Below are positions 23,537 through 44,288 of a stretch of DNA of 64,000 nt, one piece after another; positions within the stretch are counted from its first letter, which is position 1; the number at the start of each line of letters is the position of its first letter. The notes under the pieces are model-generated. The model ran no database searches and was not told where the DNA came from. It saw nothing but the letters and a program-made list of their open reading frames with translations. The stretch is from Winogradskyella sp. KYW1333. Its GTDB lineage: Bacteria; Bacteroidota; Bacteroidia; Flavobacteriales; Flavobacteriaceae. The stretch is from contig NZ_QPHL01000009.1 of assembly GCF_003335675.1 (NCBI RefSeq), forward strand, positions 1 to 64,000, given 5' to 3'. The translations under genes and the position numbers were made by a program.

Positions 23537-24436
23537 ATGAAAAAATTATTACCAGTATTACTTGTTGTCTTAATGTGCTCGTGTAAGGTGCATCATAGAT
23601 CTAACATAGAATCTGAGGAAGAGTTTGTTGTAGTTATGAAAAGAGCGGATACAAGAGGTGGTCTTGCAGAAACTGTTCTTCAAGGAGTGTTTTTTGGCGC
23701 TTCGTATTTAGCAGAAAAAACCTCAGAATCTCTAGTTAGTAAATATTCACAGTCCATATCAATAAATAATTATTATAATACAGATTTGGGGGAGGTTGAG
23801 AAGACCTATAAAGAAATTCATATTAAAAAATATTCAAAACCTAACAGCCCTGAGAAGAAAGCTCAAATAACAACGTTAGTTAAAGATGAAATTAATGCAA
23901 TGCCAAAATCCAGAGGTAATAATATGGCCTTGAATGTTCAGGACGTTATAAGGCTCGAACAAGATGATTTATTGAATTTTTATGCAGTTGTAGAATTAAT
24001 TAGCGATCCACAGAATCCAGGAGTAACAAGATTGAGTTTTAATGAACTTAGAGTGTTCTTTTCTAAAACGAAAGTATATGCTGATGAGAACCTTAATGCA
24101 AGGATTTCAATTGCAATTGAGGGACAATGGAGAGGTGAAGATGGTACACCAAAAAGCGCAACTTTGATAGAGCAGGAATATGATTTTAAAAATCTTAAAT
24201 ATGGTGTTGACAACCTCATTAATACGCCGTTATTATCACCTTGGTATTACGATATTCCAATCACTACTCAATTAGACGATAATGATAATTATGGTGTAGT
24301 TAAAATAAATGTTAGGTTAGAGGAGTATGAGGGTAACAGGAGTAAGTATATTAATAAACTTCCAAGTATGCTGAGTGATAATAAAGACGCGATCATTTCT
24401 GATGGAGCTTCAGCAATTGAGAAAATAACAAACTAA
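23537..24436 (+). CDS. Putative lipoprotein heading the CHASE2/caspase operon
   Basis: 299 residues; no family recognised. The signal peptide ends in a lipobox-like MCSC (Cys14 or Cys16). The mature N-terminus has MKRADTRGGLAE with Thr39-Arg40-Gly41, then a helical stretch, and a second site MPKSRGNN (Ser125-Arg126-Gly127). The rest is mixed alpha/beta with YDFKNLKYGVDNLIN and a polar C-terminus. It starts an operon with CHASE2, FecR-like and caspase genes (gaps of 4, overlap and 5 bases). Two Arg-Gly sites of the kind seen across this cluster make it a candidate substrate of the neighbouring proteases (inference). Confidence 0.75.
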   Translation: MKKLLPVLLVVLMCSCKVHHRSNIESEEEFVVVMKRADTRGGLAETVLQGVFFGASYLAEKTSESLVSKYSQSISINNYYNTDLGEVEKTYKEIHIKKYSKPNSPEKKAQITTLVKDEINAMPKSRGNNMALNVQDVIRLEQDDLLNFYAVVELISDPQNPGVTRLSFNELRVFFSKTKVYADENLNARISIAIEGQWRGEDGTPKSATLIEQEYDFKNLKYGVDNLINTPLLSPWYYDIPITTQLDDNDNYGVVKINVRLEEYEGNRSKYINKLPSMLSDNKDAIISDGASAIEKITN

Positions 24437-24440
24437 TTTA

Positions 24441-25607
24441 ATGAGAATTAAAACAGATAAAATTCTTTTGAGAGATGCATTTTTCTGTACCATATTGACA
24501 TTTATTATAGCTAGTATTTTATATTTTGCATTTGTGAATTTGTCTATTTTAGATCCTTTTGAGAAAGCTTTTAAAGATTTTAAGTTTACGGATATATATT
24601 ATTCTGAACGTATGAATAATGAAGAGAGAAATAATAAAATAGTCTTAGTAAATATAAAACACGCCAATCGTTTTCAAATTGCTCAAGCTATCGATAAAAT
24701 TAACACACAGAGACCAAGTGTTATAGGTTTAGATATCATATTTGAGGATAGAAAATCAGAATTTATAGATTCCCTTTTGAAGTCTTCCCTTGTATCAGCT
24801 AAGTCACTTGTAACAGCTTACTTTCATGAAAATGATTCTGTAGTTAACAATCATGAATATTTTCAGTTTTATGGAGAGACAAAAGGTTACATTAACTTAG
24901 ATTTAGAAGGTCAAAATTCTGTGATTCGGAATTTTCTTGGTGTAAAAGGCCATAATAATGATGAGTATGCATTTGCAACACAACTGGCTTTAAAAGCAGG
25001 ATATTTAAATGAGACTTATGTTAAAAAAGAATTAAAAAATCAGCTTCCAATAAACTATATCGGAAATAAAGATATTTTCTTATGCTTTGATATTGAAGAG
25101 GTCATAAATAAAGAAAAAATTCGGGCCTTCAAAGATGCTGTTGTAATACTAGGCTATTTAGGAGATGGTAATGAAAGTTTTGACATAGAAGACAAACATT
25201 TTACACCATTAAATTCTGAGTGGGTTGGTAGGGCAGTTCCTGATACTTTTGGTGTTATTGTGCATGCGAATATTTTAAACATGTTGTCTAAAGGAAATAT
25301 GATCTATAGGGTTTCAAAATTTTCAACGTATTTATTGTCATTTATAGTTTGCTTTCTTACCATACTTTTAAGTATAAAGCTTTACATAAAAAGTAGTTTT
25401 GTTTTTGATGTCTCAGAAAAATTAATTCAGCTCATACTTTCTATAGTGTTGGTTTATTTGGGATTAGCATTGCTACAAGCCAATATATATCTTAGTGTAG
25501 TGCCTGTTATCTTATTATCTATAATAGGGATTGAAATGATAGATTATTATGAATACTTGGTTAAGTATCTCAATAAAAAGTTTAAATGGGAAAGTCGATT
25601 GTTATAA
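24441..25607 (+). CDS. CHASE2-domain membrane sensor without output domain
   Basis: 388 residues. One transmembrane helix at 14-35, an extracytoplasmic CHASE2 domain (about 40-285; DPFEKAFKDFKFTDIYYSER, RPSVIGLDIIFEDR, DAVVILGYLGDG are typical), and three closing transmembrane helices (about 292-375). CHASE2 usually passes a signal to a kinase, cyclase or phosphatase domain on the same chain; here the protein stops after the membrane helices and a short tail. Output must go through another protein. The following gene overlaps it by 22 bases, pointing to the FecR-like protein and the caspase as partners (inference). Confidence 0.85.
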   Translation: MRIKTDKILLRDAFFCTILTFIIASILYFAFVNLSILDPFEKAFKDFKFTDIYYSERMNNEERNNKIVLVNIKHANRFQIAQAIDKINTQRPSVIGLDIIFEDRKSEFIDSLLKSSLVSAKSLVTAYFHENDSVVNNHEYFQFYGETKGYINLDLEGQNSVIRNFLGVKGHNNDEYAFATQLALKAGYLNETYVKKELKNQLPINYIGNKDIFLCFDIEEVINKEKIRAFKDAVVILGYLGDGNESFDIEDKHFTPLNSEWVGRAVPDTFGVIVHANILNMLSKGNMIYRVSKFSTYLLSFIVCFLTILLSIKLYIKSSFVFDVSEKLIQLILSIVLVYLGLALLQANIYLSVVPVILLSIIGIEMIDYYEYLVKYLNKKFKWESRLL

Positions 25608-26365
25608 TCTTATTAGCCCTGAGTACCGCTCTACTCCATGCCCAAGATAGTCTTTGTGTGTATAAGACTAAACCTGGGATATTATTAAATGATAATGGAA
25701 ATAAGCGACCACTTAGTAAGGGCGATTATATAAGTGCAAAAAGTTCAATTTACATGTCTACATCTTCGGAGGTAATGCTCATAAACTCTCAAGGTGAAGC
25801 ATTTAATATTAAGAATGCAGGGACTTATTCATATAAGAATATCCTAAAGTATAAAGCGCTTGATGATCAAAAGTCATTGACCTCTAAATACTTTAAACTC
25901 ATTTGGGATGAATTATTAAAAAGGAATTCTAATAAAACAATAATTGGTGGTGTTTTTAGAGGTGATGTTTTGATAGAATCACCTATGGATAGTACAAAAA
26001 TTGCGAGCTCTAAAATTACATTTAGATGGAAAACTGAAGCCGATGCTTCAAAATATTTTGTTTTTATTAGAGCCAAAGATTCCGAGACTGTCTATAAATT
26101 CGCTACTAATGGTAACGAATTTATAGTATATAAAGACAATCCTATTTTTTCTGATAATATTGAGTTTGAATGGAGTGTTTCACCCTCAGAATTTCCTAGC
26201 CTAAAGAATATTCCATTTTTTACATTTACATTGATTGATAGATCAGAATATGAAGCCTTAAAATCTAGTTACAGCGACCTAATAAAGGATTTAAAAGCTG
26301 TTGGTCTAACTAGCACAGAGATTGAAGATGCCCTCTGTGAAACTTATGGGATTTGTAAAAACTAA
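25586..26365 (+). CDS. Secreted FecR-like protein of the caspase operon
   Basis: 259 residues with a signal peptide (MGKSIVIILLALSTALLHA, then Gln). The first half (about 25-100) reads as an SH3-like/FecR-type beta unit: ILLNDNGNKRPLSKGDYIS, then EVMLINSQGEAFNIKNAGTY. The second half looks like a beta-sandwich (SKITFRWKTEADASKYFVFI) with an acidic helical tail ending CETYGICKN. FecR-CHASE2 pairs are known near caspase/CHAT genes in cyanobacteria (from memory). Probably binds the CHASE2 sensor or the protease outside the inner membrane (inference). Confidence 0.68.
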   Translation: MGKSIVIILLALSTALLHAQDSLCVYKTKPGILLNDNGNKRPLSKGDYISAKSSIYMSTSSEVMLINSQGEAFNIKNAGTYSYKNILKYKALDDQKSLTSKYFKLIWDELLKRNSNKTIIGGVFRGDVLIESPMDSTKIASSKITFRWKTEADASKYFVFIRAKDSETVYKFATNGNEFIVYKDNPIFSDNIEFEWSVSPSEFPSLKNIPFFTFTLIDRSEYEALKSSYSDLIKDLKAVGLTSTEIEDALCETYGICKN

Positions 26366-26370
26366 ATACC

Positions 26371-29300
26371 ATGTTCAGAACCAATTTTGTAGCATTTATA
26401 CTATTAATACTATGTGTGAAATTAAATGCTCAAAAGACATTTTTAGAAACACAGTATGTTATAAATGATCTTTACTTCAGTTCAACAAATGGTGAGATTG
26501 TTTATGCAAATGATACTAGACTCTATTTTGTGGACTATGAAACTTTAGAACCAAAAGATTCTGTAACGTTAATAACAGATAATTCTAAGTATATAAGCAG
26601 TTTTGAATATTTAAATACTCCACAACCGCTTATTGTAATTAAGACAAAAACAAAGCAAAAATACTATCAGAATTTTTTTGAGTATCCAGAAGATTCCATT
26701 TACTTTCTTAATCGTGCTCAGAAAAAAGTAATTAATAAATTTTCAGGAAATATATACGCTTCATTTAATGAAGAAAACCCTTCTATAGCTGTTGTTGGTT
26801 ATAATGAGTTCTTTGACTTTAAGGATGATTACGGTAATGTTAACAAGTCACCATTAACAGGTAAATTAGAGTCGTTACCAAATCGTATCGCGGTTGCATC
26901 TAGCGGAACAATACGAAAGATTAAAGTCAACAATAGTCGTAATAAGGTTGCTATTATTTATCAAAAATATTTTGGGAAGGATGATCCGCATGATCATATT
27001 TTAGAACTTAGAGATTTACCAAGTTTAGATTCAATTACCTCTAAGAAAATTAAGTATAAAACACATGATATTTATTTTTCTGATGATGATAATTATTTAA
27101 TATTAAAGCAAGACGAAGCTCAGGTTAGTTCCTCGTCCTTATCTCGCAAAGAGTTTTTTAAAATATATGATACTTCAACATTGAGTGACGTTGAGATTCT
27201 TCCTGAAAGTTTAAATGTCAATGGTGTCATTGAAAATAATACGGTATGGAGACATTATGACGCAGAGATCATTCAAGAAAATTTTAATACTAAAAAGACC
27301 CTACAACGAATTTGGTCTAATCTTACACCTTTTTCTGTTATTGATGGTTTTGAAAAAGTGGATGGTAATACAGTTTTAATATATGGGAATAAAGGCTACG
27401 GTTATGGTACTGTTAAAAACGGGATTTATAAATTTCAGTTAAAGGATGAAGCTGTTTATTCTGAAGTGAAAAAGGTAAGTACTATAGATACCTTATTCAA
27501 CCCGTCAGAGGTGCGAATAATGGATAATAAAACAAAGGTGTATGCGGTAGATTATAGTCAAAAAGGTAACAAACTTCTTGTAAAAGAAGAAGTATATAAA
27601 CCGACAAACTTTGAGTTGTGGTCTACTTTAGATAAGAAAAAGTTATACGACATTGAGTTGCCTCAAACGGTAAATCCAATGCTAGATAATAATGGTGAAA
27701 AGGTCTTATTTTTTGAGCAACATCAAGGTAAAGCTTTCGATGAATTTAAATTAAAAGTCCTTGATATTTCAACCGGAATAGTTAAGGTCGCTTTATATGA
27801 AGACTCAGACTTTAATGCATTAAGTGCTAAATGCCATAATCTTAAAACCAAGCCAAATGAATGGGTTTGTAGTGACGGCTTTGCAAAATTCTGGAGGATT
27901 AACACGGATGACCTATCGGTTAATCTAATTAAAGATTTATCTAATGAGTCCTATTATCGGACAGATGTGACTGCTTTTGAAGGTATACCAGATAGCGACA
28001 ATGTTTTGCTTGCTTTAAGAAGTGTAAATGTTGCACCAAATCATAGTATTACAGAATCTAATTTTGAAGGTTTCAAAATTTTCAGTCCTGACAATGGTTT
28101 AACCTCAGACTTACCATCAATACAAGAATATCAATATGCAATTCCTGTTAATGATAGTAGCATAATTCTTAAAGATGAGAGTAGGCTGCAATTATATAAT
28201 GTTGTGTCCAATACATTCACAGATATATCAACGACTCAAGAAAATTCCCTAATTAAAGACGTTTTGGTATTAGGTGATAAAGCAGATATTATTGTAGATA
28301 AAGCCAATAGCTATGGCGATAGCCTCCAAATAACAAGCTATAATTTTAAGGATAATAAAATAGAGGAATCATATAAGATTGATGGTTATAAGAATGGATT
28401 ATTCAAAACTTTTGAAGGTATTAATTATTATGGTTTAGATTCTTTTTATACATATAATAAGACGTTAGATGCAGAAGTTGGATGGAGTAGTCATAAACCA
28501 AATTATACTCAAGAACATGATTTAAATATCAGTAGTAATGGAAAACTTCTTTATGGCGGTCAATGGTTAATTGATTTAAAAAAATTAGAATTAGAACAGC
28601 AACTACCAAGTTTTACTGCAAATACGCTTTTAGAAGATGATGAAATAGTGTCCTTAGATACAGATAGTGATAAATACGGTTCAAAAGATTATAATTTTAG
28701 AATTGTGAGTGCACAAAAAACTGATTCTGTACTATGGAAGAGTAAAACTGTACGCATTGATTTTAACGAAAGACCTAGCTCAAGAGTATGGTCAAAAGAT
28801 AAAAATTATGTGCTTTACTATAATTCATCTCAACTTACAGAAAATCAGACGGTTTATCTCATTGATGTAAAAAATAGACTATTAGTCAGTAAGAAAGTCG
28901 ATTTTAAAATAAAGAAAGCGCGTTTTGCAGATGATGCACTGCAAGTTGTTCTGAACTCTCATTCAGACATTATGCAATTGGACATAAAGACTGTATTTTA
29001 TGATATAAATGGTTTAAAAAAGATTAAAGAGATAACTACGGATTTTGACGATGAGGTAGATGAGAATAGTTACGTATTTACTGACTATGAGTTTTTATTA
29101 CACTATAACAGAAGTGGTGAAACCGTAGAAAAGATAAAGTCCTATTATGCAAGACGCTCCTTAAGTACTTCAGTTTTTATAAAAGAAAAGGATCTACTTG
29201 TTGCAGGTACATATAATGGTGCCTTAGTCTTTTGGGATAAAAACAATAGTTCACCAAAACAAATCGAGCAAATTTCGGATTCTGAAATTATTCGAATGCA

Positions 29301-30759
29301 ACAAATTAAGGATTTGCTTTATATTCTATCTAAAGATTCTGAAATAAGTGTTGTAAATCTCAACACCCTGAAATTAGAAGTCTCATGTAAAATCTTTGAG
29401 AAAGAAGACGAAATAAGTTTAGCATGGATTACACCAGAGGGTTATTTTAAAGCAAACAAAAGCGATATAAGAAAATTTCATTTTGTCAAAGACGGAAGAG
29501 CATTACCATTGATAGATTATGAAATGTTTCTTAATCGTCCTGATATTATCATGAAACGTCTTGGCTTTGCCTCACCTAAGTTTTATGACTTATATAAAAA
29601 TGCCTATTTAAAACGCCTTGTAAGGAATGGGTATCAAGAGAATACGGATATTTTTAATTTAGAAAGGCCAAAATTAAAACTATTAAATCGACAAGAAATA
29701 TCTATTCTTACAGACCAAAGGCAAATAGATTTAAACATAGAAAACACTTCAAAATCTTCAGAGTTAATTGTTTACATCAATGGTGTGCCGACAAATAAAC
29801 GCTTACTTAAAAACGAATCTATTCTAAAGGAAACTATTGAGCTCAATAGCGGTATTAATAGAGTTTCAATAATATCGAAAGATGATTCCGGTACTGAATC
29901 CGAGCCTATTTCTTTTGAAGTAACAAGTACTATAAAAAGATCGCAGTCCAAATTGTATTACATTGGTATTGGTGTGTCAAATTACCAAGATAGCACCATG
30001 AATCTGAAATATGCAGATAAAGATGTTGCCAGAATAAGTGAGGTATTAAATTCAAAATACGAAAACAACATTGTTGTTAAGACGTTACTTAATGATCAAG
30101 TAAATAAAAAGTCTGTGCAAGAGTTGAAAACGCTGTTACGATCTACAGATATAGATGATACAGTTATTGTTTCGTTTTCTGGACATGGTCTAATTGGTAA
30201 GGATAACGAGTTCTTTTTCGCTACCCACAATATAAATTTTGATACTCCAGAAGAACATGGTTTATCTTATTCAGAAATTCAAGATTTATTGACAGATATT
30301 CCTGCAAGGCGCAAGTTGTTATTATTAGATGCATGTCATAGTGGAGAGCTAGATGCCAGTAACAATAGTTCTGGTTTAAACACTAAAGTTGTAAGTCGCA
30401 TACCAGAAGGTGCAAAGGGAAGTAAGGCAAAAAGTAAAACTGCCAAAAATGAAGAATCATTCAACTTAATGCAAACTCTATTTTTCGATATTGATAGAGG
30501 TAATGGTGCATATGTGATTTCAGCGGCTGGTGGGTCTGAATTTGCCTATGAAGATGAAAAATGGGAAAATGGTGTATTTACTTATAGTTTTTTAAGTGCA
30601 CTGAATGATTTAGGTTACGATACTTGGAGAGGAGAACAAGGAATTCCAATTTCAGAATTAAAAGATTACGTCTATAACAAGGTAAAGGAACTCACCAATA
30701 ATAAACAACGACCAACATCTAGAGCGGAAAACTTAGAGTGGGATTGGTTTTTGAATTAA
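26371..30759 (+). CDS. Giant secreted beta-propeller protein with C-terminal caspase domain
   Basis: 1462 residues. Signal peptide (MFRTNFVAFILLILCVKLNA, then Gln). Residues of about 25-1090 are degenerate WD40/propeller-like repeats. A short Ig-like segment follows (about 1110-1185), then a peptidase C14 domain from SKLYYIGIGVSNY (about 1193). The catalytic dyad is complete: His1272 in SFSGHG and Cys1322 in LLLDACHSG. Asp1320 (Asp-x-Cys) is the S1-pocket residue that in metacaspases and paracaspases goes with Arg/Lys at P1. The loop after the Cys is long and basic (VVSRIPEGAKGSKAKSK, from 1340), the place where caspases are cut during activation. Its stop overlaps the converging gene by four bases. 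Confidence 0.9.
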   Translation: MFRTNFVAFILLILCVKLNAQKTFLETQYVINDLYFSSTNGEIVYANDTRLYFVDYETLEPKDSVTLITDNSKYISSFEYLNTPQPLIVIKTKTKQKYYQNFFEYPEDSIYFLNRAQKKVINKFSGNIYASFNEENPSIAVVGYNEFFDFKDDYGNVNKSPLTGKLESLPNRIAVASSGTIRKIKVNNSRNKVAIIYQKYFGKDDPHDHILELRDLPSLDSITSKKIKYKTHDIYFSDDDNYLILKQDEAQVSSSSLSRKEFFKIYDTSTLSDVEILPESLNVNGVIENNTVWRHYDAEIIQENFNTKKTLQRIWSNLTPFSVIDGFEKVDGNTVLIYGNKGYGYGTVKNGIYKFQLKDEAVYSEVKKVSTIDTLFNPSEVRIMDNKTKVYAVDYSQKGNKLLVKEEVYKPTNFELWSTLDKKKLYDIELPQTVNPMLDNNGEKVLFFEQHQGKAFDEFKLKVLDISTGIVKVALYEDSDFNALSAKCHNLKTKPNEWVCSDGFAKFWRINTDDLSVNLIKDLSNESYYRTDVTAFEGIPDSDNVLLALRSVNVAPNHSITESNFEGFKIFSPDNGLTSDLPSIQEYQYAIPVNDSSIILKDESRLQLYNVVSNTFTDISTTQENSLIKDVLVLGDKADIIVDKANSYGDSLQITSYNFKDNKIEESYKIDGYKNGLFKTFEGINYYGLDSFYTYNKTLDAEVGWSSHKPNYTQEHDLNISSNGKLLYGGQWLIDLKKLELEQQLPSFTANTLLEDDEIVSLDTDSDKYGSKDYNFRIVSAQKTDSVLWKSKTVRIDFNERPSSRVWSKDKNYVLYYNSSQLTENQTVYLIDVKNRLLVSKKVDFKIKKARFADDALQVVLNSHSDIMQLDIKTVFYDINGLKKIKEITTDFDDEVDENSYVFTDYEFLLHYNRSGETVEKIKSYYARRSLSTSVFIKEKDLLVAGTYNGALVFWDKNNSSPKQIEQISDSEIIRMQQIKDLLYILSKDSEISVVNLNTLKLEVSCKIFEKEDEISLAWITPEGYFKANKSDIRKFHFVKDGRALPLIDYEMFLNRPDIIMKRLGFASPKFYDLYKNAYLKRLVRNGYQENTDIFNLERPKLKLLNRQEISILTDQRQIDLNIENTSKSSELIVYINGVPTNKRLLKNESILKETIELNSGINRVSIISKDDSGTESEPISFEVTSTIKRSQSKLYYIGIGVSNYQDSTMNLKYADKDVARISEVLNSKYENNIVVKTLLNDQVNKKSVQELKTLLRSTDIDDTVIVSFSGHGLIGKDNEFFFATHNINFDTPEEHGLSYSEIQDLLTDIPARRKLLLLDACHSGELDASNNSSGLNTKVVSRIPEGAKGSKAKSKTAKNEESFNLMQTLFFDIDRGNGAYVISAAGGSEFAYEDEKWENGVFTYSFLSALNDLGYDTWRGEQGIPISELKDYVYNKVKELTNNKQRPTSRAENLEWDWFLN

Positions 30760-33743
30760 TTTAAAATATACGTTTCTATAGTGTTGCTACTATACAATTC
30801 TTTAAGCTTGTTAGACCTAAATAGATTTTGATTCACTTTTCTCCGCATGGCTTCACTTTCAGAAAACTTGCCGTTAAATTTTAGATAAACTGAAGCCAAT
30901 AAGTAATCTGTGGTTTTATCAATTTTAGTCAAATAATTATAATAGTAGTTCGCATTCTCTTTATTGTTCAGGTCAATACTGGCTTTAGTTAAAACACGTA
31001 ATATATCTGCATTGAGCGATTTGGAATTGGCTTTGCTAATACTTGGTAAAGCAACTTTTAATGCTTCTTCAGGATTATTATTTAAGTACAAATGATTAGC
31101 ATAAATAAGAGCTGTATTGCCTTTACTGTCAATGTCGTATGCGAGTTTATAAAGTTTTGTGACTTCTTCTGGCGTGCCAAATTTACTTTTATCTTTCGCT
31201 ACTGTATGTAAAAATTCAACAATTTCTTTTGTTGTATTGCTGTTCGCAGCATTTTGAGAAGCGCTAATTAAATTAGAAGCAGCTTTTTCGGTCTGATTTA
31301 TTTCAACCTGGCTAAAACCTAAACTTTTATTTCCTTTTACAAAAGACTTGTCAATAGTAACTGCCTTTTCAAATGCATCGATAGCCCTATTATAATTCTT
31401 AGTTTTAAAATATGTTTGGCCTAACAAATACCAAAAATCTGGTGCCTTAGAATTGTTCTTAATGGCAGTTTGCAATAGGTCAATTGATTTTTGGACTTCA
31501 CCTTGTTCATTATATAGTCTTACAATAGAAGTGTATGCATTAATAGACTTATCGTTTGTTTCAATGGCTTTTTTATACATTGCTACAGCTTCAACTGTAT
31601 TATTTGACTTTAGTTCTAAATACTGGCCAAATAAGAGAAATGCATTAGCGTCATTGGGATTGGCAGCTAAACATGCTTCTAGAGTATTTTGCGCTTCAAG
31701 TGGTTTTCTCATTTGTGATTTTAACCATGCTTTTCCAGAATATGCTTCAATATTATATGGATTAAGTTTAATTGCTTTGTCATAGAGTGAATCTGCAATT
31801 CTTAACCGAGTTAATCGTTTATATTTTAAACGAATAAAATCTGCATATTCAGAGTAGGCAGTTGAACTTTCTGGGTTATTATCTAAAGCATTAAGCAATA
31901 GTTTTTCAGCCTGTTCATTTTCAATGTTATTTAGTTTGATGTAATTCAATAATCCCATCGATGTTATTGCATCAGAAGAATCAGTCTTTAAGGCTTTTTG
32001 ATACCATTCTATTGCTGCTTTTGCATTTCCTTTTAAGCGTTGTAATTCACTCATTTTTTGTTGCGCCAAAACATTGTTAGGATCTGTTTTTAAAGCTTTT
32101 TGAAAGTATGACTCAGCAAGTTGATAGTTGCCTTGTAACATATTAATTTCGCCTAACTTTAGATTGGCTTCATTTCCGTTTTTACCGAGCGAATTATCAA
32201 GGTAGGCTGTGGCTTCATCGAACTTATATTGATCAACAAAATTATCGCTTATATTCACGTCTGGACTTTGCCATGTTTGGATTAAACTTTTAGCTTTTTT
32301 AAAGTGATAAAACGCACTGTCGTATTTTCTTTGGTTATTGTAAACCAAACCTAAGGCATTATGAATGTAAGCTGCTCTTGGTTCTAATTGAATTGCTGAA
32401 TTAAGTTTCCTTTTAGCCGCTTCAAATCTCACATGATTATTACTTCTAATAATAGCATATGCCTCTAAAAGCATCTGACTCGCTTTAACTCGATTGTACA
32501 GAAAAATATCTTCTCCCATTAACTCTAAACAGATATCGAGATGTTTAGATTGTCGAACAAATTCTTTACTAGGAGGTAAATAGGTAGAACCTTCAATGTA
32601 TAGATTTATTAAAGATTGGGCTTCATTAGATAAAGTTTTTAATAAAATGCTTTGCATTTTACTTTTAATACCCTCAGAAATAGTGTTATCGTTTAAAACA
32701 GATTTGTATATTTCATATGCACTTGATGATTTGCCATAGTAGGAATTACGTTGTATTGCAGCATTAAATCTCGAAATAGTCTCACCGTTTGATTTGTTTT
32801 TTAAATCTGTTTTTGTAATTCCTCTAGCAGCGAGTTGTTTCGTGTTTTCAATTGTAGAAGCAATGTCTTCAAAGTTGATTATTGTAGCATCGTTAGAGAT
32901 AACTTTCATTATAGCTCTATCATTTTTTGTGCGCAGAATTGGTGTTTGTCTCTTATTGTGTTTTTTTACAACGGTAGTATTTACGTTGTCATATAAATAA
33001 TCATCAAGTTCTCTATAAATAATATTTTTGTCTGCATCGTCATCTGCTAAGCCAGATAGTCCTTTGACTAAATAATAGGTAAAATACCCATGTTTTAAAT
33101 CTGCACTTTCATAAGATAATTCATCTGCACCACAACTTAGTATTTTGGTAGAATTCTCAAACATGGCCTGTAAGGTTCCCATATTTTTTTTTGTGCCTTT
33201 TTCAAATACAAAACCAGATCGGCAAGCGTCTAAAATGAGGACTACATTAACACCTTTTAATGTAAGGTTATCAATAGCTTTATTTAGAAGTGCCAAGGGT
33301 ACTACACCACCAGAGTAATATTCTTGATTAGTATTAGCATCTGCTGCAAGTAAAAAGCCTTCCTTTTCACCAAAATCTTCAACTACATCACCATGGCCAG
33401 CAAAATAGATGTATAAAACATCGCCATCTTTTGCAAGATTAAACTGCTTTTTTAATTCTTGTACAATGTTTAGTGCGACCGCGTCCTTATTGATGAGTAG
33501 ACAGATATTGTTATTTTCTAAACCTTCAATATCGGTTAGATAATTTTTAAAAAGCGCAGCATCATTATCGGCAAACTTTAATTTCAAGTCATCGGCATTA
33601 TAATTAGAAACTCCAATGACAATAGCACGCTTTGTACCTTCAGATGTTTTGGTAATAGTATTTGGTTTAGATCCACGTGAACCATCTTGAGCATAACTCA
33701 AAGCGGAAATAACTAATAGAAGATATAGTATTATGTGTTTCAT
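30756..33743 (-). CDS. Secreted caspase-TPR protein
   Basis: 995 residues. Signal peptide cut after Ala18. The mature protein starts QDGSRGSKPN (Ser22-Arg23-Gly24), immediately before the caspase domain (about 38-270). Dyad: His117 in YFAGHGD, Cys174 in LILDACRSG; Asp172 sits two residues before the Cys. From about residue 385 to the end the chain is TPR repeats (for example NYQLAESYFQKALKTDPNNV and NYNRAIDAFEKAVTIDKSF). Last gene of the eight-gene minus-strand operon. The Arg-Gly site at the extreme N-terminus would allow removal of a short pro-piece (inference). Confidence 0.9.
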   Translation of the reverse strand: MKHIILYLLLVISALSYAQDGSRGSKPNTITKTSEGTKRAIVIGVSNYNADDLKLKFADNDAALFKNYLTDIEGLENNNICLLINKDAVALNIVQELKKQFNLAKDGDVLYIYFAGHGDVVEDFGEKEGFLLAADANTNQEYYSGGVVPLALLNKAIDNLTLKGVNVVLILDACRSGFVFEKGTKKNMGTLQAMFENSTKILSCGADELSYESADLKHGYFTYYLVKGLSGLADDDADKNIIYRELDDYLYDNVNTTVVKKHNKRQTPILRTKNDRAIMKVISNDATIINFEDIASTIENTKQLAARGITKTDLKNKSNGETISRFNAAIQRNSYYGKSSSAYEIYKSVLNDNTISEGIKSKMQSILLKTLSNEAQSLINLYIEGSTYLPPSKEFVRQSKHLDICLELMGEDIFLYNRVKASQMLLEAYAIIRSNNHVRFEAAKRKLNSAIQLEPRAAYIHNALGLVYNNQRKYDSAFYHFKKAKSLIQTWQSPDVNISDNFVDQYKFDEATAYLDNSLGKNGNEANLKLGEINMLQGNYQLAESYFQKALKTDPNNVLAQQKMSELQRLKGNAKAAIEWYQKALKTDSSDAITSMGLLNYIKLNNIENEQAEKLLLNALDNNPESSTAYSEYADFIRLKYKRLTRLRIADSLYDKAIKLNPYNIEAYSGKAWLKSQMRKPLEAQNTLEACLAANPNDANAFLLFGQYLELKSNNTVEAVAMYKKAIETNDKSINAYTSIVRLYNEQGEVQKSIDLLQTAIKNNSKAPDFWYLLGQTYFKTKNYNRAIDAFEKAVTIDKSFVKGNKSLGFSQVEINQTEKAASNLISASQNAANSNTTKEIVEFLHTVAKDKSKFGTPEEVTKLYKLAYDIDSKGNTALIYANHLYLNNNPEEALKVALPSISKANSKSLNADILRVLTKASIDLNNKENANYYYNYLTKIDKTTDYLLASVYLKFNGKFSESEAMRRKVNQNLFRSNKLKELYSSNTIETYILN

Positions 33744-36994: not shown

Positions 36995-39079
36995 TTATTC
37001 AACTAAAACAAAAGCGGCCCATTTTTCAGGGTTGTCTTTGTATTTGTCTGACATTTCTAATTGAGTATTTCTAAACGCTTCTCTTATGTTTTTTCCACTG
37101 AGCCAATTACTGTAAAACAGTTCCATAAATTCAGCAGTTTCTTTATCTGGTACTTCCCAAAGACTCATCATTATATTTTTTACCCCTGCCATTTTTAGAG
37201 CACGTTGCAAACCATAAACACCTTCGCTACCTTCAATATCTCCAAGCCCAGTTTCACAAGCCGATAATACAACCAAATCCGTCTTAGATAAGTCTAAATT
37301 GGATATTTCTAAAGCTGTTAAAATGCCATCATTGCGCTCATATGGATTGTTACCATTTTGCCATGCATAATTGGCATGAGCAAGCAATAGGCCAGAACGT
37401 AATAATGGATTGTCGGCATTTTTAAATTCGATATCATTGTTGTCTTTAGCTTTATCGTTTTTAAAGAAAAAACCATGCGTTGCAATGTGTATAACATCTG
37501 GACTCTTACCGTTCAAACTCTTAAATTGAGTCTCTGAAGCTTCATCATTATTAAGCGTTGTGGTTTTGGTAGTTTTGGAGGCCAAAATAGTTTCAATATT
37601 TTTAATTTCATCAGCTGTACCTTGAAGATATTGCCAAGATCTATTTAATGCGGTGCTTTCGTCAGAAACAAGATCTAAAAATGACACTTGGCTATTGTAT
37701 AAGATGTTTTTGCCTTCAGTATTAAAATCATAATTTATTCCACCAATTAATAAGACTGAATTCTTTTTGGGTTGTTGTCGTCTTAAGGTAATTACTTTAG
37801 AACTACTTACTTGTTCTAAATCAAACAGCTCTATGAGCCTTTTGTTTGAAGCATCCATTAGCGCTGCAAATGCTACTTGATGAAGCATGCCATCAGCTGA
37901 TATGTAAACCTTTTTGTTGTTCTTTAATTCGGTTTCAATAGGTTTAATGATAAGATTATACAAGTTCTTATCATAGCTTGAAGCATTGACTTGTTTAGCT
38001 TTTGAACCTCTAGATATTTCATTTGAAGTATTAATCCCTTTGCTCAAAATTGCTCTTAGTTCTTTTTCTTCAAATAAGGATAATATCTTTGGATGTTGCC
38101 ATTCTTTTTTAAAGAGTTGAGCCACATAAATAATACTGTCTGTCCAAGTTTGATCAAAATATCTAAAATGACTGAATTCAACTGAAATTTCATCTTCTTT
38201 TAAAGCAGTGCGTCTCCAATTAATAGACCTTTTACGATTGTCATTAATATTCTGATGGTATAAGTACAGTATTTCAGACTCTAAACCACCTAATCTGTCA
38301 TATCTTATTCCAAAATCTGGCACACGTTGTGATTCTGATATACTGAGTTGTTGGGCAATAAATTCCTTTTCATTTACATAGGCATTAATCAAATTTGTAA
38401 TTTCTGGTTTTTCAAGAGCTCTTAGTTTATTAAGTATATCCTTTGATGTGTTCAATAATGCTCCTTTTATTAGTAAAGTATTATCAACCAACAGATTATT
38501 AAAGCTACCATATCTGTATTTAGTTTTAAACCCAAACGATTGAAATAAATGGAAATAAGGAATAATATTTTTGTTTAAAAAAGACTCTTTCTCATCATTA
38601 AGTCTACTACCTAGTACATCGTTGGTGTGGTTGACTAATCTCGTGTTAACGTCGCTAAATGTTGGAACTACCTCTCTTGGGTTTTTTGTAGCCTTATAAA
38701 ACTCAATTAAAGTTTTAAGTGATGTTTTAAAGGATTCACTTTCCAATTCAAGTTCATTCTTGCGCAGTTTTCCTAATTCAATGTTAGTTTTTAACTCATT
38801 TTCCTTGTCTCTCGAAACCCGATAATAAAAGTTCAGTTTAAAGAGAATCATACGTTGATTATCGTAACTATCTTTAAAATTCTTAAAAGCAAAGTCTTTG
38901 GCATCTTCTGCTTCAATAATAGCACTGGTGAGGTTGCCACTTTTGGCTAAACTATCAATTTTAAAAAGTTGAGTCCTAAATTGTTGCTGAAGTTCTTTAT
39001 TGGGTTGGGCAAATAATGAAGCGTAAGAGCAGATAATTATTAAAATGACCAATGATTTAAGTATAAACTGAGATTTCAA
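36995..39079 (-). CDS. Secreted CHAT-domain protease without TPR array
   Basis: 694 residues from a TTG at 39079, giving the signal peptide KSQFILKSLVILIIICSYAS, LFA, then Gln. An ATG at 39127 is in frame but lies inside the tail of the preceding CHAT remnant and would give an implausible N-terminus. The CHAT domain has His535 in IHIATHGFFF and Cys608 in VVLSACETGLGDIEGSEG. EISRGSKAKQ holds Ser356-Arg357-Gly358, 179 residues before the His as in its paralogue. Residues of about 25-300 are helical but not clear TPRs. Probably a duplicated, shortened copy of the TPR-CHAT gene. Confidence 0.85.
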   Translation of the reverse strand: MKSQFILKSLVILIIICSYASLFAQPNKELQQQFRTQLFKIDSLAKSGNLTSAIIEAEDAKDFAFKNFKDSYDNQRMILFKLNFYYRVSRDKENELKTNIELGKLRKNELELESESFKTSLKTLIEFYKATKNPREVVPTFSDVNTRLVNHTNDVLGSRLNDEKESFLNKNIIPYFHLFQSFGFKTKYRYGSFNNLLVDNTLLIKGALLNTSKDILNKLRALEKPEITNLINAYVNEKEFIAQQLSISESQRVPDFGIRYDRLGGLESEILYLYHQNINDNRKRSINWRRTALKEDEISVEFSHFRYFDQTWTDSIIYVAQLFKKEWQHPKILSLFEEKELRAILSKGINTSNEISRGSKAKQVNASSYDKNLYNLIIKPIETELKNNKKVYISADGMLHQVAFAALMDASNKRLIELFDLEQVSSSKVITLRRQQPKKNSVLLIGGINYDFNTEGKNILYNSQVSFLDLVSDESTALNRSWQYLQGTADEIKNIETILASKTTKTTTLNNDEASETQFKSLNGKSPDVIHIATHGFFFKNDKAKDNNDIEFKNADNPLLRSGLLLAHANYAWQNGNNPYERNDGILTALEISNLDLSKTDLVVLSACETGLGDIEGSEGVYGLQRALKMAGVKNIMMSLWEVPDKETAEFMELFYSNWLSGKNIREAFRNTQLEMSDKYKDNPEKWAAFVLVE

Positions 39080-39392: not shown

Positions 39393-41402
39393 TTACCCCT
39401 TACTTTTTACAATCTCATATACAAATTCTGTACTATAACCATCAATTTTGCCTCCGCTTGATCTGCTATTGGCTGTTCTTCCTCTAGTTTGTGTATAGGT
39501 TTCACCCACAAAATCTTCTAAAGGATTATTATCTCCTGCACCGCGAGTATCGGCTTTTTCGCCTCTAGATTGTACGGTTGATTTAAAATTGATTGGTTTG
39601 GGTGTTGCAAATCCTTTAAGAATTAGTGTTTCGTATGGATCACCAAATTGAAAATAACAGTTTTCAAATACCATGGTTTTACCAGGCATAATACGTCTTT
39701 CATTGTCATTTAGTGTGCAATCATCATTTGGCAGAAATGTGGCAATTTCACCTTTAGAATTAATTTCTATAATACTAAAGTAAAGTGGTTTATCACTTTT
39801 ATTAGTGACTTCTAGAAATACCACATCATCTTCTGTATTTACTTTAAATTTGCCCGCTTCATCAATGAATGCGTCTTCTTCTAAAAGTTCTATTTCGTCA
39901 ATTTCGGCATTATATTTTCCAGGTAATAAACGAAACTCAAACTCATAATCATAATTCTTAAGATTGAGGTCCTTTAAATAAGATCCTTGTGCATAATTGA
40001 ATAGGGTAGTTGTAATTTCATCGTAATCATATTTGCCGTCTATTTTAGGTTGACTAAAAATAGACTCATCACTAATAAGTTGGGTGTCTTGACCACTTAC
40101 CGTAAGAATAGAAATAGTACCTTTTTCTTCGGCAATAATCAATTTTGCTTCTGTAGCAGACTCCACAATTTGTCCTATTTTTTTCTCAACTAAAAAGGTT
40201 TCAATAACCTTTTTAGTGGCATTGGATTTTACAGATTCGTCAAAATAAATGTTAAGAGAAATATCTCCATAAGTTGGTTCGTCCACAAACACCCAGAATT
40301 CCTTCTCATTTGTTGTTTTAAGTGGTGTATCTAGTTTTATGATTGACTCATTAAAACGTGCTCTTGTTATTGCGCCTTTTGCAATAATGTCTTTATCCTC
40401 TACTTTGGATGTTCCGGCTGGTAATATATTGACTGTGGTTCCATCGAATAAGCTTTGAAGTTTTCCAGCATTAATTTTTATAATGTCTGCTCTAGATATT
40501 TTAGAAATAGGATAATAAGGTTGTTGCTTTACGTACGCTCCACCAAACAGTTTATAATCTAAATCACCTTCTGCCGTTGGTGTTTGGTTCGGTGAAATGA
40601 CATTCATATTAGCTGATATAGCAGAAAAGAGTTTTCTGTAGGTGACATCAGATCCTAAATCGTTCATAGCTTTTGAAAATGCAAAGCTCAGTGAGCCATA
40701 GCCTTCATATTCGTAATTAAGTTCGTCTGCAGAAGCGCCAGACAGCATTACAAAAGGAGCAGCATTTGGACCAGCCTTTACAGGTTCTAATAATCCACTA
40801 CCGTTGTTATTCTGCTCTGAGTTTGGAGTCCAACCTGGTGGGGCAAAAGTGGCTTCGCCACCACGTGCTTTACCACCACGAGTCGCAGAACCAGAATGGC
40901 AACTATCTAATAACATTAACAGTTGACCCTCATTACCTAAAATATTTCTAAAAGTCGCAATGATATTTCCCAACTCATCATCTCTAATGTGATTTTGGCC
41001 TTCGTATTTGTTCGGAATAAATCGTACTAAAGCATCATAAGGCACAATGGATTCGTCTTTGTCATCAATTTCTTCATTATTGTCATCATAGATTTGTTGT
41101 CCATGTCCCGAGTAGTGAATGACCACAATATCTCCAGGTTTTAATTTGGCTTGAAGTGTTTTAATGGCATTCAAAATTCCTGCTCTAGTAGCCATTTCAT
41201 TTTTAAGAACGGTTATATTTTCTTCTTTAAAATCTTGATTTAACAAGGTTGTTTTAATTAAGGGTACGTCATTAGCAGAACTAATGGATGACCATCCTGT
41301 TTTTACGGGATAATCACCAACGGCAATGATGAGCGCATGTTTTTCTGCCTGAACGCTTATACTGAAAGCTAAAAAGAAAATAAGTAATGTTATTTTTTTC
41401 AT
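39393..41402 (-). CDS. Secreted metacaspase-like protease with C-terminal beta domain
   Basis: 669 residues. Signal peptide cut after Ala19. The peptidase C14 domain (21-290) has His100 in IHYSGHGQQ and Cys168 in LLDSCHSGS, with Asp166 as predicted S1 residue and Asp45 in the SANDV motif. Six residues after the Cys is SATRGGKARGGE (Thr174-Arg175-Gly176), the autoprocessing position in caspases and metacaspases. The rest is beta-rich, with a DUF4384-like segment (about 520-605), and the tail carries Ser612-Arg613-Gly614, Thr619-Arg620-Gly621 and Thr639-Arg640-Gly641. Distinct from the other two caspases, nearer to plant/fungal type I metacaspases in its HYSGHG and DSCHSG boxes. Confidence 0.9.
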   Translation of the reverse strand: MKKITLLIFFLAFSISVQAEKHALIIAVGDYPVKTGWSSISSANDVPLIKTTLLNQDFKEENITVLKNEMATRAGILNAIKTLQAKLKPGDIVVIHYSGHGQQIYDDNNEEIDDKDESIVPYDALVRFIPNKYEGQNHIRDDELGNIIATFRNILGNEGQLLMLLDSCHSGSATRGGKARGGEATFAPPGWTPNSEQNNNGSGLLEPVKAGPNAAPFVMLSGASADELNYEYEGYGSLSFAFSKAMNDLGSDVTYRKLFSAISANMNVISPNQTPTAEGDLDYKLFGGAYVKQQPYYPISKISRADIIKINAGKLQSLFDGTTVNILPAGTSKVEDKDIIAKGAITRARFNESIIKLDTPLKTTNEKEFWVFVDEPTYGDISLNIYFDESVKSNATKKVIETFLVEKKIGQIVESATEAKLIIAEEKGTISILTVSGQDTQLISDESIFSQPKIDGKYDYDEITTTLFNYAQGSYLKDLNLKNYDYEFEFRLLPGKYNAEIDEIELLEEDAFIDEAGKFKVNTEDDVVFLEVTNKSDKPLYFSIIEINSKGEIATFLPNDDCTLNDNERRIMPGKTMVFENCYFQFGDPYETLILKGFATPKPINFKSTVQSRGEKADTRGAGDNNPLEDFVGETYTQTRGRTANSRSSGGKIDGYSTEFVYEIVKSKG

Positions 41403-41414
41403 GGCAGATAAATA

Positions 41415-42845
41415 TTAATTAAGATCAAAAAGGCTAAAAGAAATTCCGAAGTAGTAGCCAAAGTCATAGACATTTTTGGTAAAGTTATCTATACTCGTAA
41501 AGCTTGTGCTATCGCCAACTTCTAATCCGTTAGTTAGGCGTTTAACTGGTCCATAAGCAACACCACCAGAAAGGGCTAATCTACTTTTACTGCCAAAAAA
41601 TAGTGATGGTCCTAACAAGAAGTTAACACCAGAAATACTATTGTCACCGGAAATTGGTATGGATAATCCAAAGCTACCACCAACATTAAAGTTTTCTCCC
41701 ATAAACGGGTAAAAATTAATCATGGTACTTAGGTTAGGAACAAAAAAGTCGTTGTTATCTGCCCCAATAACACCAGACTCATCAATAAAATAATCGTTAG
41801 AATTGCTTCCAAAATTATTGAGAGTCATTGCAACACTCGTGTTTATTTTGAAACCACCTTTCGAAAACATTTTAATATTTCTAGTTTTTAGGATTGTGGC
41901 ATTGTCATCATTATCAATATCATTTGAGAAATCGCTTTGAACAAATTTGAGCTCTATATTCACCTTATCTGCGGATAATTCGTAATCGTAGGTTTGCTCA
42001 AAGTTTGATGCCTCTAGAATCGTATAAAGCGAACGTAGCTCATCTAAATTTTGAAGACTTTTTCCTGTAGAACTATTGAGATTTGTCATTAAGCGTTGTA
42101 GGTCGGCCATGGCAATATTTCGCGACACTAATTCACCTCTAGAAACCACTCCATCTTTTGAGGCACTTGTATTTTCAATCTCTTGAGACAAAACATTAAT
42201 GTTACTTTCAAGTTGAGATTTACTATCATTAATTGATTTTTCAACTTTTGCCAAGTACACGAAAAAATTGTCTTGAGCACTTGGGAGCCGCGCATCTAAT
42301 TCTGCGTCTGCAGTTTTAATTAAATTTTCTATAATAGTTTCCTTATCTAAATTTGGATTTAAAAGGTTAGAAATTAAAGTTGATTTTAAAGCGGCTACAT
42401 TGGTTATTTGATTGTTCAAATCATCTAAACTACTTTGGGCAGAACTACTTCCTCTGGAGCCTCTTTCGGATTTAAACAAATTTGAGTCAGGTAGATTTGA
42501 AGTGTTTAGGTCTATGTTGTCACCAGTAAAGGAATTAATACTTCCTAATAACGAACTAAAATTAAAGCCTTGTCCGGTATTTATAAGATCTTCTTCTTGC
42601 ACATCAGTTTCTACTTGAACAGCAAATGGATTAACATTGGATAATTTTAACTCGATTAGACTATTCCGTTTAATTTTAGGTTTATCCAAAGTGTCAATAA
42701 CCTTGTTGTTTTTATCGACATGTAAGTAGTCAATTTTATCAGTTACATAGTCATAGGTAATTCTATAGCGTTTTTGTGCATAGGATAAACATGAAGACAA
42801 CAGAATGATTAGTATGCTGATTGTTTTGAGGTGCTTAATTTTCAT
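41415..42845 (-). CDS. Secreted coiled-coil/beta-barrel protein of the caspase cluster
   Basis: 476 residues, no family recognised. Signal peptide ending CLSYA, then Gln. A small N-terminal beta region (25-80), a low-complexity stretch with SERGSRGSSSAQ (Ser130-Arg131-Gly132), a helical/coiled-coil segment (about 140-290) containing DGVVSRGELVSRN (Ser235-Arg236-Gly237), then a C-terminal half of alternating strands ending YDFGYYFGISFSLFDLN, as in an outer-membrane barrel. VVSR|G resembles the human paracaspase MALT1 cleavage motif. It is 12 bases downstream of the metacaspase stop-start boundary and likely its substrate or anchor (inference). Confidence 0.72.
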   Translation of the reverse strand: MKIKHLKTISILIILLSSCLSYAQKRYRITYDYVTDKIDYLHVDKNNKVIDTLDKPKIKRNSLIELKLSNVNPFAVQVETDVQEEDLINTGQGFNFSSLLGSINSFTGDNIDLNTSNLPDSNLFKSERGSRGSSSAQSSLDDLNNQITNVAALKSTLISNLLNPNLDKETIIENLIKTADAELDARLPSAQDNFFVYLAKVEKSINDSKSQLESNINVLSQEIENTSASKDGVVSRGELVSRNIAMADLQRLMTNLNSSTGKSLQNLDELRSLYTILEASNFEQTYDYELSADKVNIELKFVQSDFSNDIDNDDNATILKTRNIKMFSKGGFKINTSVAMTLNNFGSNSNDYFIDESGVIGADNNDFFVPNLSTMINFYPFMGENFNVGGSFGLSIPISGDNSISGVNFLLGPSLFFGSKSRLALSGGVAYGPVKRLTNGLEVGDSTSFTSIDNFTKNVYDFGYYFGISFSLFDLN

Positions 42846-42866
42846 AATAACTAATTTAAGTTCTTC

Positions 42867-44288
42867 TTACTGTTTCACTTTCCAGTAAAAAATATTGTTT
42901 TTGAGTTTTATTAAGGATAAACGCTTTCTATCTAGTGCGCGTTGTCCTGATTGTATAATGTCGAATATATCTGAAATTATTGAATTTGTGTCGGCAAAGT
43001 AAGAATGACTTAAAAAACTAGTGTCTATACCAGAGGCGTCAATAGTTTCAACACCATCAACAATAACCATTTTTTCGCCAGCATCTCCAGCTCTGGGATT
43101 ACCATGTAGAAGTTTTGAGGCCTTTAAGGCTAAGTCGTCTGCCGAAACGTATAGTGTAATTGGTTTTTTAGTTTCAGCAACCATTTGCGGTGCAATCTCA
43201 TTTTTAAAAACATCAGCATCAATATCTGGTGCTGCTAGAATGATTTCTTTTATTTTATTACGTAAATCAGGGTGATTTTTCATTACCTGAACGATAGCAT
43301 GGGTTAACCCTCTGTTACCCATGCTATGAGCTACAAGATAGATTTCTTCTGCTTGTGATTTAGATAGGTAATCCTCTAAAAATCGTTGCATATTTGATTG
43401 GGACCAAGCAATATTTTCTTCGTCCTTTCCATATCTGAATGTCGATGCTTGTGATGGCCAACTATAAAATACTGCTTTACCATCAAATTTTAAATCATAA
43501 GAAATTTGAGCTGTGCGCTTCGCGGCTTCACTGAATGATGTATTGTAGCCATGCACAAATAAAAAGGTACTCTTCTTTTCGGATTCTTCAATATCTTTTG
43601 AAAGCTTATCGAAAAATTCATTCTTTTCTAATAGCGAGATCTTTTGAAGCATCATGTGCTTTTTAGGGTCCTCTGTAAATTCGAACTTCCAAATTGCAGG
43701 ACTTTCAATTTCACCAACTCTATGGTCGTGTGGAATGCTGACTTCCACAATGCCATATTTGAGTTTAGAACGTTTAATTCCAAAAGTATCATTTAAATCT
43801 TTTGATTTGATATAGTTTCTGTCCGTACCAAAATAAATTGGTAGTTTAACAAAGTCTGGTGTGTTGGCGCCTCTATCAATAGGATTGGGGTCAACATATG
43901 TAAGACAGATGGAAAATACCTGTTCCATGAGCTTGTTTTTGACCCTGTATGTAATTTTTAGTTCTAGGTCTCCATTGGATTTATAGCTATCATTAGAAAG
44001 TAACCAAAACTTAAAATCAAAAATATTGAACTGTTCGACGCTAGAAAAATATTCACTTTTGTAATTGGCTCCAACTATTATCTGAAGATTTTTCACTAAT
44101 GTAGAATCGTTAACATAGTCCAGCCTAAATTTGCTGTAATCACTTCTGTTGGATAGGCAAGAATCTCCTTTCACTAAAGTTTCGTCTTCAAAAATGAGGT
44201 ACTGATTGTTCTGTGCATTAAGTTGCGATGTACTGACAACCACACAGAGTAAAGTAAAGAATAAAAAGGATGAAATCTTGTTAAACAT
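42867..44288 (-). CDS. Secreted DUF900-type alpha/beta hydrolase
   Basis: 473 residues. Signal peptide ending QLNA, then Gln. N-terminal beta domain (about 27-135), linker IDRGANTPD (Asp138-Arg139-Gly140), then a DUF900/lipase-like hydrolase. FLFVHGYNTS (about 237-246) forms the oxyanion region, LVAHSMGNRG (about 316-325) the Ser nucleophile elbow. AAPDIDADVF holds the acidic residue and FLSHSYFAD the His. Substrate unknown; family members are often found with proteases and membrane systems. The Arg-Gly between the two domains would let a protease free the enzyme from its N-terminal domain (inference). Confidence 0.85.
   Translation of the reverse strand: MFNKISSFLFFTLLCVVVSTSQLNAQNNQYLIFEDETLVKGDSCLSNRSDYSKFRLDYVNDSTLVKNLQIIVGANYKSEYFSSVEQFNIFDFKFWLLSNDSYKSNGDLELKITYRVKNKLMEQVFSICLTYVDPNPIDRGANTPDFVKLPIYFGTDRNYIKSKDLNDTFGIKRSKLKYGIVEVSIPHDHRVGEIESPAIWKFEFTEDPKKHMMLQKISLLEKNEFFDKLSKDIEESEKKSTFLFVHGYNTSFSEAAKRTAQISYDLKFDGKAVFYSWPSQASTFRYGKDEENIAWSQSNMQRFLEDYLSKSQAEEIYLVAHSMGNRGLTHAIVQVMKNHPDLRNKIKEIILAAPDIDADVFKNEIAPQMVAETKKPITLYVSADDLALKASKLLHGNPRAGDAGEKMVIVDGVETIDASGIDTSFLSHSYFADTNSIISDIFDIIQSGQRALDRKRLSLIKLKNNIFYWKVKQ

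Follow-up and report, generated by a model that had tools for sequence, protein, structure and literature searches.

An Arg-Gly signature shared across an exported metacaspase cluster of Winogradskyella suggests a proteolytic processing network

The window analysed here, a 64,000-nucleotide stretch of Winogradskyella sp. KYW1333 (contig NZ_QPHL01000009.1, forward strand), contains a cluster of ten proteins that includes an exported metacaspase, other caspases and CHAT proteins. An Arg-Gly (R-G) signature recurs among these proteins, mostly in loops or linkers, and is conserved in related clusters. It suggests a single protease that cuts both its own chain and its partners, activating or freeing the latter. 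The motif occurs in excess, is kept while its flanks drift, lies in predicted loops of the two proteins that were modelled, and is linked to the metacaspase. We infer that the R|G bonds are cut, that the metacaspase is the cutter, and that events follow the order set out below. At a probability of roughly 0.7, the exported metacaspase would mature at (S/T)R|G and then cut R|G in its partners, forming a proteolytic processing network in the envelope.

Excess and recurrence of the motif

A preliminary description of the window had claimed eleven Ser/Thr-Arg-Gly tripeptides ([ST]RG) in cluster proteins, and all eleven are present in the proteins it named, against 1.3 expected in the ten cluster proteins (1,000 per-protein shuffles, none of which reached 11). 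The other called open reading frames (ORFs) of the window, 12,302 amino acids in total, hold the three [ST]RG that it had counted there, with 4.1 expected from per-protein shuffles. Because the motif had been picked after looking, we ranked 24,389 position-class tripeptides in the cluster proteins; the first place goes to [ST]-R-G, with a Poisson p of 1.4e-7 (Bonferroni-corrected, about 0.004). The shuffles and this rank rule out chance or hindsight as the origin of the excess. Taken by itself the window is suggestive, and the relatives decide the case. Three features go beyond the preliminary description: a longer form of the motif, [ST]RG[SGE]KA (RG-x-KA is observed four times in the cluster against 0.05 expected), a Lys-Gly (K-G) linker in the WD40-caspase protein (AKGSKAKSK), and a second linker site in the metacaspase, R180-G181.

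Relatives were sought by scanning contigs with a metacaspase alignment and two peptide patterns, neither of which includes the sites. Of the 122 relatives that this gave, the best 80 were kept; they lie at 79 loci, in Flavobacteriia, Sphingobacterium, Parapedobacter, Bacteroidales, Chitinophagaceae, Saprospiraceae and Balneolaceae, among others; the closest metacaspases are mostly from Winogradskyella, with up to 89% identity. For enrichment counts one locus was kept per 75% identity group (49 of the 79; 50 with the window for the metacaspase count). [ST]RG is enriched 5- to 24-fold in five partner families: the lipoprotein (19 against 0.8 expected), the barrel protein (34 against 2.0), a trypsin-like protease with ankyrin repeats (7 against 1.0), the caspase-TPR protein (9 against 1.5) and the TPR-CHAT protein (10 against 2.1). 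For proteins at a distance of four genes or more the count is 22 against 26.1 expected; nearer by, at one to three genes, the remaining proteins show 19 against 13.8.

It is very improbable that the motifs are a structural or compositional coincidence amplified by common ancestry. The window counts are small and, because orthologue counts are not independent, we put more weight on the conservation of alignment columns. Against coincidence, the site recurs in unrelated proteins (clan CD proteases, a lipoprotein, a barrel protein, a hydrolase, a trypsin-like protease and a protein of about 140 amino acids), seven control tripeptides show no comparable rise over the families, and the sites of both modelled proteins are disordered or in loops. 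One control excess, that of [DNE]RG in the hydrolase, is the same D-R-G site that is described below.

The exported metacaspase

The proposed R|G protease and its sites are as follows.

39393..41402, minus strand: metacaspase of 669 amino acids, with a caspase domain at residues 21-279, D-x-C and a C-terminal DUF4384-like region
40875..40883, minus strand: site T174-R175-G176, directly behind the catalytic DSCHSG, in the p20/p10 linker
40860..40865, minus strand: second linker site R180-G181, invariant in 46 of 46 sequences
39561..39569, minus strand: site S612-R613-G614, in the loop between helices 606-612 and 627-636
39540..39548, minus strand: site T619-R620-G621, in the same loop
39480..39488, minus strand: site T639-R640-G641, in segment 639-650, where the predicted local distance difference test (pLDDT) is under 50

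The protein matches Pfam C14 (8.7e-19), and DUF4384 at 2.8e-5, which is under that model's cut-off. Among structures it matches PDB 4f6o (9.9e-14; named Metacaspase-1, which we take to be Yca1), and the top Foldseek matches of its model include metacaspases (AtMC9, 9.1e-14) and MALT1. We aligned the window protein with 46 near-complete relatives less one left out by choice (that of L087), giving 46 sequences. H100 and C168 are invariant in all of them, in keeping with the p20 fold and catalytic His and Cys of family C14B. D166, D106, E111, D113, D116 and E117 are invariant as well, and in the alignment with 4f6o they reproduce the D-x-C and the acidic loop of Yca1. By analogy, the active site probably accepts Arg.

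In this alignment, which reaches down to 28% identity, the invariant columns number only 41 of 669; they include R175, R180, G181 and R640. R175 is kept in 46 of 46 and G176 in 44; R640, also kept in 46 of 46, is the sole invariant residue after P589, and is followed by G in 37 sequences, S in five and A in four. Across 50 metacaspases, some of them fragments, there are 3.5 [ST]RG per protein against 0.19 after shuffling, and in 42 of the 50 one lies within the 14 residues that follow DxCHSG. Several orthologues carry a further [ST]RG near window residue 450. At one locus a second, tandem metacaspase copy (L062:8894-10927, 72% identity) has four [ST]RG sites.

The AlphaFold2 model has a mean pLDDT of 85.4, and the segments of at least three residues with pLDDT under 50 are 172-182, 198-205, 438-440 and 639-650. 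R175 and R180-G181 thus lie in one segment predicted to be disordered and R640 in another; the loop with R613 and R620 has pLDDT values in the sixties, and the preceding helix ends at 612. Invariant residues in loops that are disordered in the model have the look of a cleavage or docking motif. With R175, seven residues after C168, the linker that follows the catalytic Cys holds a conserved basic residue that would serve as P1, as in a zymogen processed between p20 and p10. Caspases are processed in a linker about 14 residues after beta4, and metacaspases take Arg or Lys at P1, according to PMC4357240; the orthocaspase MaOC1 autoprocesses (PMC5756287). With sites 7 and 12 residues after the Cys, the metacaspase fits this linker and self-processing logic.

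We consider it improbable, though less so than coincidence, that the R-G segments stay uncut and serve as recognition or pseudosubstrate motifs, which would occupy an Arg pocket, hold a complex together or mark partners for another modification. Docking would explain short conserved motifs in disordered linkers as well as cleavage does, there are several sites per protein, and Arg plus a small residue is strict while P2 varies. Cleavage is favoured by the first metacaspase site, which stands where caspase-fold proteases mature, and by the sites behind the signal peptide of the caspase-TPR protein and upstream of the trypsin-like domain, which are typical places of propeptide cleavage.

Sites in the partner proteins

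The candidate substrates in the window and their sites are listed here.

41415..42845, minus strand: exported barrel protein of 476 amino acids, modelled with an N-terminal beta domain, helices and a C-terminal beta-rich part, probably a barrel
42450..42458, minus strand: barrel-protein site S130-R131-G132, in a 46-residue linker (89-134, pLDDT under 50) predicted to be disordered, between beta domain and helices
42135..42143, minus strand: barrel-protein site S235-R236-G237, at the end of loop 226-235 and the start of helix 236-279
23537..24436, plus strand: putative lipoprotein of 299 amino acids with an N-terminal hydrophobic stretch
23651..23659, plus strand: lipoprotein site T39-R40-G41, with Arg in 12 of 12 sequences and [ST]RG in 11 of 12
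23909..23917, plus strand: lipoprotein site S125-R126-G127, with Arg aligned in 11 of 12; in the remaining sequence TRG is shifted by a single column
30756..33743, minus strand: caspase-TPR protein of 995 amino acids (Pfam C14, 1.1e-16, and TPR)
33672..33680, minus strand: caspase-TPR site S22-R23-G24, in the short stretch behind the signal peptide
33779..36991, minus strand: TPR-CHAT protein of 1070 amino acids (Pfam CHAT, PF12770, 1.2e-56)
34805..34813, minus strand: TPR-CHAT site T727-R728-G729, in the CHAT loop
36995..39127, minus strand: CHAT protein of 710 amino acids as called from TTG (Pfam CHAT, PF12770, 8.4e-64)
38006..38014, minus strand: CHAT site S372-R373-G374, one of the [ST]RG counted in the window
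26371..30759, plus strand: WD40-caspase protein of 1462 amino acids (Pfam C14, 3e-15)
30412..30420, plus strand: WD40-caspase linker A1348-K1349-G1350, a Lys version of the site, from the linker motif comparison
42867..44288, minus strand: DUF900 alpha/beta hydrolase of 473 amino acids (Pfam 1.1e-49, domain at 225-438)
43869..43877, minus strand: hydrolase D138-R139-G140, ahead of the DUF900 domain
44319..44612, minus strand: trypsin-like/ankyrin protease remnant of 97 amino acids, recognised by comparison with intact relatives of about 510 amino acids

The barrel protein gives the clearest contrast between site and flanks. R-G is kept in 22 of 22 sequences at both sites, flank conservation is about 0.42, and between G93 and A152, as well as between N193 and L277, R-G are the sole invariant residues (19 sequences). 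Its model (pLDDT 76.8, predicted template modelling score 0.53) has no Foldseek match at an E-value of 0.001, and outer-membrane barrels are among the weak matches. The lipoprotein has no Pfam or NCBIfam match.

In the caspase-TPR family R-G precedes the caspase domain in 14 of 19 sequences, the window included, and some of the misses have another architecture. The CHAT proteins have R-G in the loop in 26 of 29 cases at metacaspase loci (loci not dereplicated), with Ser or Thr before it in only 14. The CHAT site had been given at 356-358; it is residue 372 in the called ORF, which starts 16 residues earlier at TTG. For WD40-caspase relatives the p20/p10 linker was compared in 20 non-redundant sequences whose active site could be recognised. 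All 20 have RG or KG and next to it a small residue, Asp or Val, a motif formulated post hoc that shuffled linkers show in 1.4 of 20; 21 of 29 matches had a recognisable DxCHSG and could be judged. The hydrolase D-R-G, to which the preliminary description had also pointed, is present as R-G in 10 of 10 sequences, with Asp at P2 in seven and Ser, Thr and Gly in one each. Elsewhere among the loci, a further C14 caspase (L060:14126-15850, domain 333-537) has S-R-G-S-K-A about 20 residues before its caspase domain, and the corresponding protein at L088 (L088:8884-10542) carries S-R-G-S-K-G.

Two partners are best seen in relatives. The 97-residue ORF of the window joins the N- and C-terminal ends of the protease; the internal part that holds the catalytic motifs has been lost in frame, and N-R-D now stands where the R-G site was. 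Intact relatives have R-G-V/I-F/Y-G in 18 of 18 aligned sequences (P2 is Ser or Thr in 13 and Pro in five) and in two more. The nearest solved relative is glutamyl endopeptidase 1p3c, and no alignment reaches the N-terminus of 1p3c; R|G is therefore a candidate maturation bond of this protease by its position.

The second is an exported protein of about 140 amino acids found at 30 loci, directly upstream of the metacaspase at 23 (mostly metagenome-assembled genomes of Bacteroidales) and directly downstream in two flavobacteria. One example is L111:9515-9937, with [ST]RG sites near the N-terminus and a conserved domain containing W and C. Of the 16 non-redundant members none is without [ST]RG in the N-terminal stretch, and 13 carry it twice there, in a family gathered by a hidden Markov model of the globular part alone whose 12 seeds came from a set chosen for having two motifs. 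In the alignment (14 of the 16 members) lost sites are replaced by K-G, R-A or R-S-G. No match to Pfam (two members) or NCBIfam (one member) was found, and a 143-residue member has none in 120 genomes of the window's family. Among the 79 loci, 25 have the barrel protein and 30 the small one, and none was found with both, as though one stood in for the other.

Two cluster proteins carry no code.

24441..25607, plus strand: CHASE2 membrane protein (Pfam 5.1e-19)
25586..26365, plus strand: exported protein without Pfam match, which we take to be FecR-like

Eight CHASE2 relatives hold one [ST]RG (0.7 expected), and eight relatives of the FecR-like protein likewise one. Of the Arg|Gly processing code that the preliminary description proposed for the whole cluster, these two proteins and the need for Ser or Thr fall away. 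Strict [ST]RG is ruled out as the code, conserved R-G sites being often without Ser or Thr; its core, as read from the alignments, is R|G, with S/T at P2 preferred and not required. What stands is a conserved motif in loops: the two checks proposed with the code, on orthologous clusters and on predicted structures of two proteins, found the sites kept while flanks drift, and in disordered or loop segments.

The proposed cutter and its precedents

Among 120 genomes of the window's family, one of them the window's own, a strong metacaspase match (E below 1e-100) is present in 6. The lipoprotein occurs in five of these six and the trypsin-ankyrin gene in all six (in the window as the remnant), and both in none of the 114 others. 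The barrel protein is found in the six and in G015, with two weak partial matches elsewhere; in G015 the contig breaks off within the barrel gene, at the point where a metacaspase gene is expected next, and the metacaspase itself was not found. By a simple heuristic, all ten cluster proteins begin with a hydrophobic stretch that resembles a signal peptide or a membrane anchor; the same heuristic marks 210 of 453 unrelated locus proteins, and export is therefore likely, not proven. A known anti-phage defence system was rejected as an identity for the cluster: for the eight of ten proteins scanned (all but caspase-TPR and TPR-CHAT), PADLOC gives only the generic caspase PDLC02987, in two proteins.

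CHAT proteins are found in 56 of the 120 genomes (E 1e-15), and we compared them at thirty loci, one per genome, with G015 placed among the metacaspase-bearing genomes here and in the caspase comparison. The 24 CHAT proteins of metacaspase-free genomes (18,892 amino acids) contain no [ST]RG; in metacaspase genomes it is present in four of five (five of six with G015), the CHAT of G107 lying on another contig than the cluster. G048 is the exception, with L-R-G in the CHAT loop, and the metacaspase-bearing G126 has Y-R-G. The CHATs of G039 and G345, which are of the close subfamily and in whose genomes no metacaspase was found, have no R-G in the loop. Among caspases, 17 proteins of metacaspase-free genomes hold two [ST]RG and eight of metacaspase clusters hold 12, nine of these 12 sitting in two metacaspases; for locus L204 a neighbouring ORF was taken. 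Another caspase type, in three metacaspase-free genomes (L205, L206 and L208), has A-R-G-A-A-E-E-K in its p20/p10 linker, which is possibly a separate self-processing site.

Several observations weigh against a metacaspase that cuts itself and its partners at one code. Most CHATs of metacaspase-free genomes belong to a subfamily without the loop, which leaves only G039 and G345 (79% complete) as close controls, and the sample leaves out further CHATs of metacaspase genomes, for example G107:C4, G049:C27 and G070:C4. The CHAT loops of L131, L132 and L134 have no R-G, and the metacaspases there have only one or two [ST]RG; the divergent metacaspases of L130 and L137 have none. Within the metacaspase, R613 is kept in only 28 and R620 in 37 of the 46 sequences. 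There is no clear excess of [ST]RG in the WD40-caspase (7 against 4.7), CHAT (2 against 0.7) and hydrolase (1 against 0.4) families, [ST]KG is raised about two- to threefold in several families, and single-family control excesses occur, of GR[ST] in CHASE2 (5 against 0.2) and of [ST]RA in the hydrolase (3 against 0.3). Many conserved R-G sites lack Ser or Thr, some sites are K-G, R-A or R-S, and a looser linker motif occurs in 4 of the 17 caspases of metacaspase-free genomes. In addition, PMC4357240 describes type I metacaspases and paracaspases as needing no processing.

The R-G sites could instead be processed by another Arg-specific enzyme, namely the trypsin-ankyrin protease, a CHAT protein, another caspase or an unlinked envelope protease; we regard this as unlikely, although it is the strongest of the alternatives weighed. 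The trypsin-ankyrin gene co-occurs with the metacaspase in the family genomes and is present at 20 of the 79 loci, and D-x-C is found in all three caspases of the window, as the preliminary description had said; that description also relates CHATs to separase. However, the trypsin-ankyrin protease of the window is a remnant and the other sites nonetheless remain, and the 23 loci with the small protein upstream show no relative of it on stretches of 5.8 to 22 kb (it could lie elsewhere). CHATs and other caspases vary from locus to locus; the metacaspase is present at every locus by construction of the scan. The Arg protease family C11 (PF03415), present in 2 of the 120 genomes, is absent from all six metacaspase genomes and so ruled out as the cutter; it is not among the Pfam matches listed for the cluster proteins (the top 25 for the caspase-TPR protein) and has no match in the whole window genome. 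The preliminary description had the cluster proteins activating and cleaving one another, but one protease suffices, and the metacaspase is the likelier single cutter.

We propose a sequence of events located in the envelope, either periplasmic or at the surface. The metacaspase would be made as one chain and cut itself at R175|G and R180|G, which stand behind the active-site Cys and between the two halves of its caspase domain, and again in its C-terminal loops. It may then sever the lipoprotein at R|G from its lipid-bearing N-terminus, and split the helical part of the barrel protein from the N-terminal domain and from the barrel. The caspase-TPR protein would lose a short N-terminal stretch, as would the trypsin-ankyrin protease in relatives, and the CHAT domains would be nicked in a loop where they begin, so that partners are released or activated. 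A bolder and more tentative reading, which we hold somewhat less probable than not, is an extracytoplasmic zymogen cascade of Bacteroidota, in which metacaspase, CHATs, further caspases and the trypsin-like protease mature through one (S/T)R|G bond and swapped-in effectors join by acquiring it. Its logic would be comparable to that of complement and coagulation.

Little is known of what caspase homologues cut naturally in bacteria, and a 2017 review counts only one orthocaspase as biochemically characterised (PMC5756287). Here candidate substrates, and the very bonds at which they would be cut, can be read from the genome in many genera, which makes specificity, activation and function directly testable, and a sequence code would let further members of the network be found. 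If the proposal is true, bacteria use caspase-type signalling outside the cytoplasm. The literature search, limited to open-licence PMC papers, gave no account of an R|G code common to the proteins of an exported caspase/CHAT cluster.

Among known systems, the type I metacaspases and orthocaspases of family C14B (Yca1, TbMCA2, MaOC1) share with the cluster metacaspase the caspase fold, the His/Cys dyad, D-x-C and the metacaspase-type Asp/Glu loop. Their known members cut after Arg or Lys, and MaOC1 processes itself. The cluster metacaspase is unlike them in being exported, in its extra C-terminal part, in the multi-site S/T-R-G code and in recurring partners with the same site. MALT1, whose structures are among its Foldseek matches, is likewise described as Arg-directed, and the LxSR|G type of MALT1 substrate resembles the cluster site; MALT1 differs as a human signalling protease with no code common to a gene cluster. 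Gingipain R (family C25), according to PMC4357240, combines a caspase fold and Arg at P1 with self-maturation at two Arg. It belongs to another family. The craspase TPR-CHAT protein (Csx29) has the same TPR-CHAT architecture and is CRISPR-associated; craspase is cytosolic, unlike the exported cluster. For gingipain R we know of no partner network with a common site. Fragipain of Bacteroides fragilis, a caspase-fold Arg protease of clan CD, activates two unrelated secreted proteins at a common R|A bond, according to PMC8406203. It differs from the cluster metacaspase in its family, C11, and in its site, and among the systems known to us it is the closest functional precedent.

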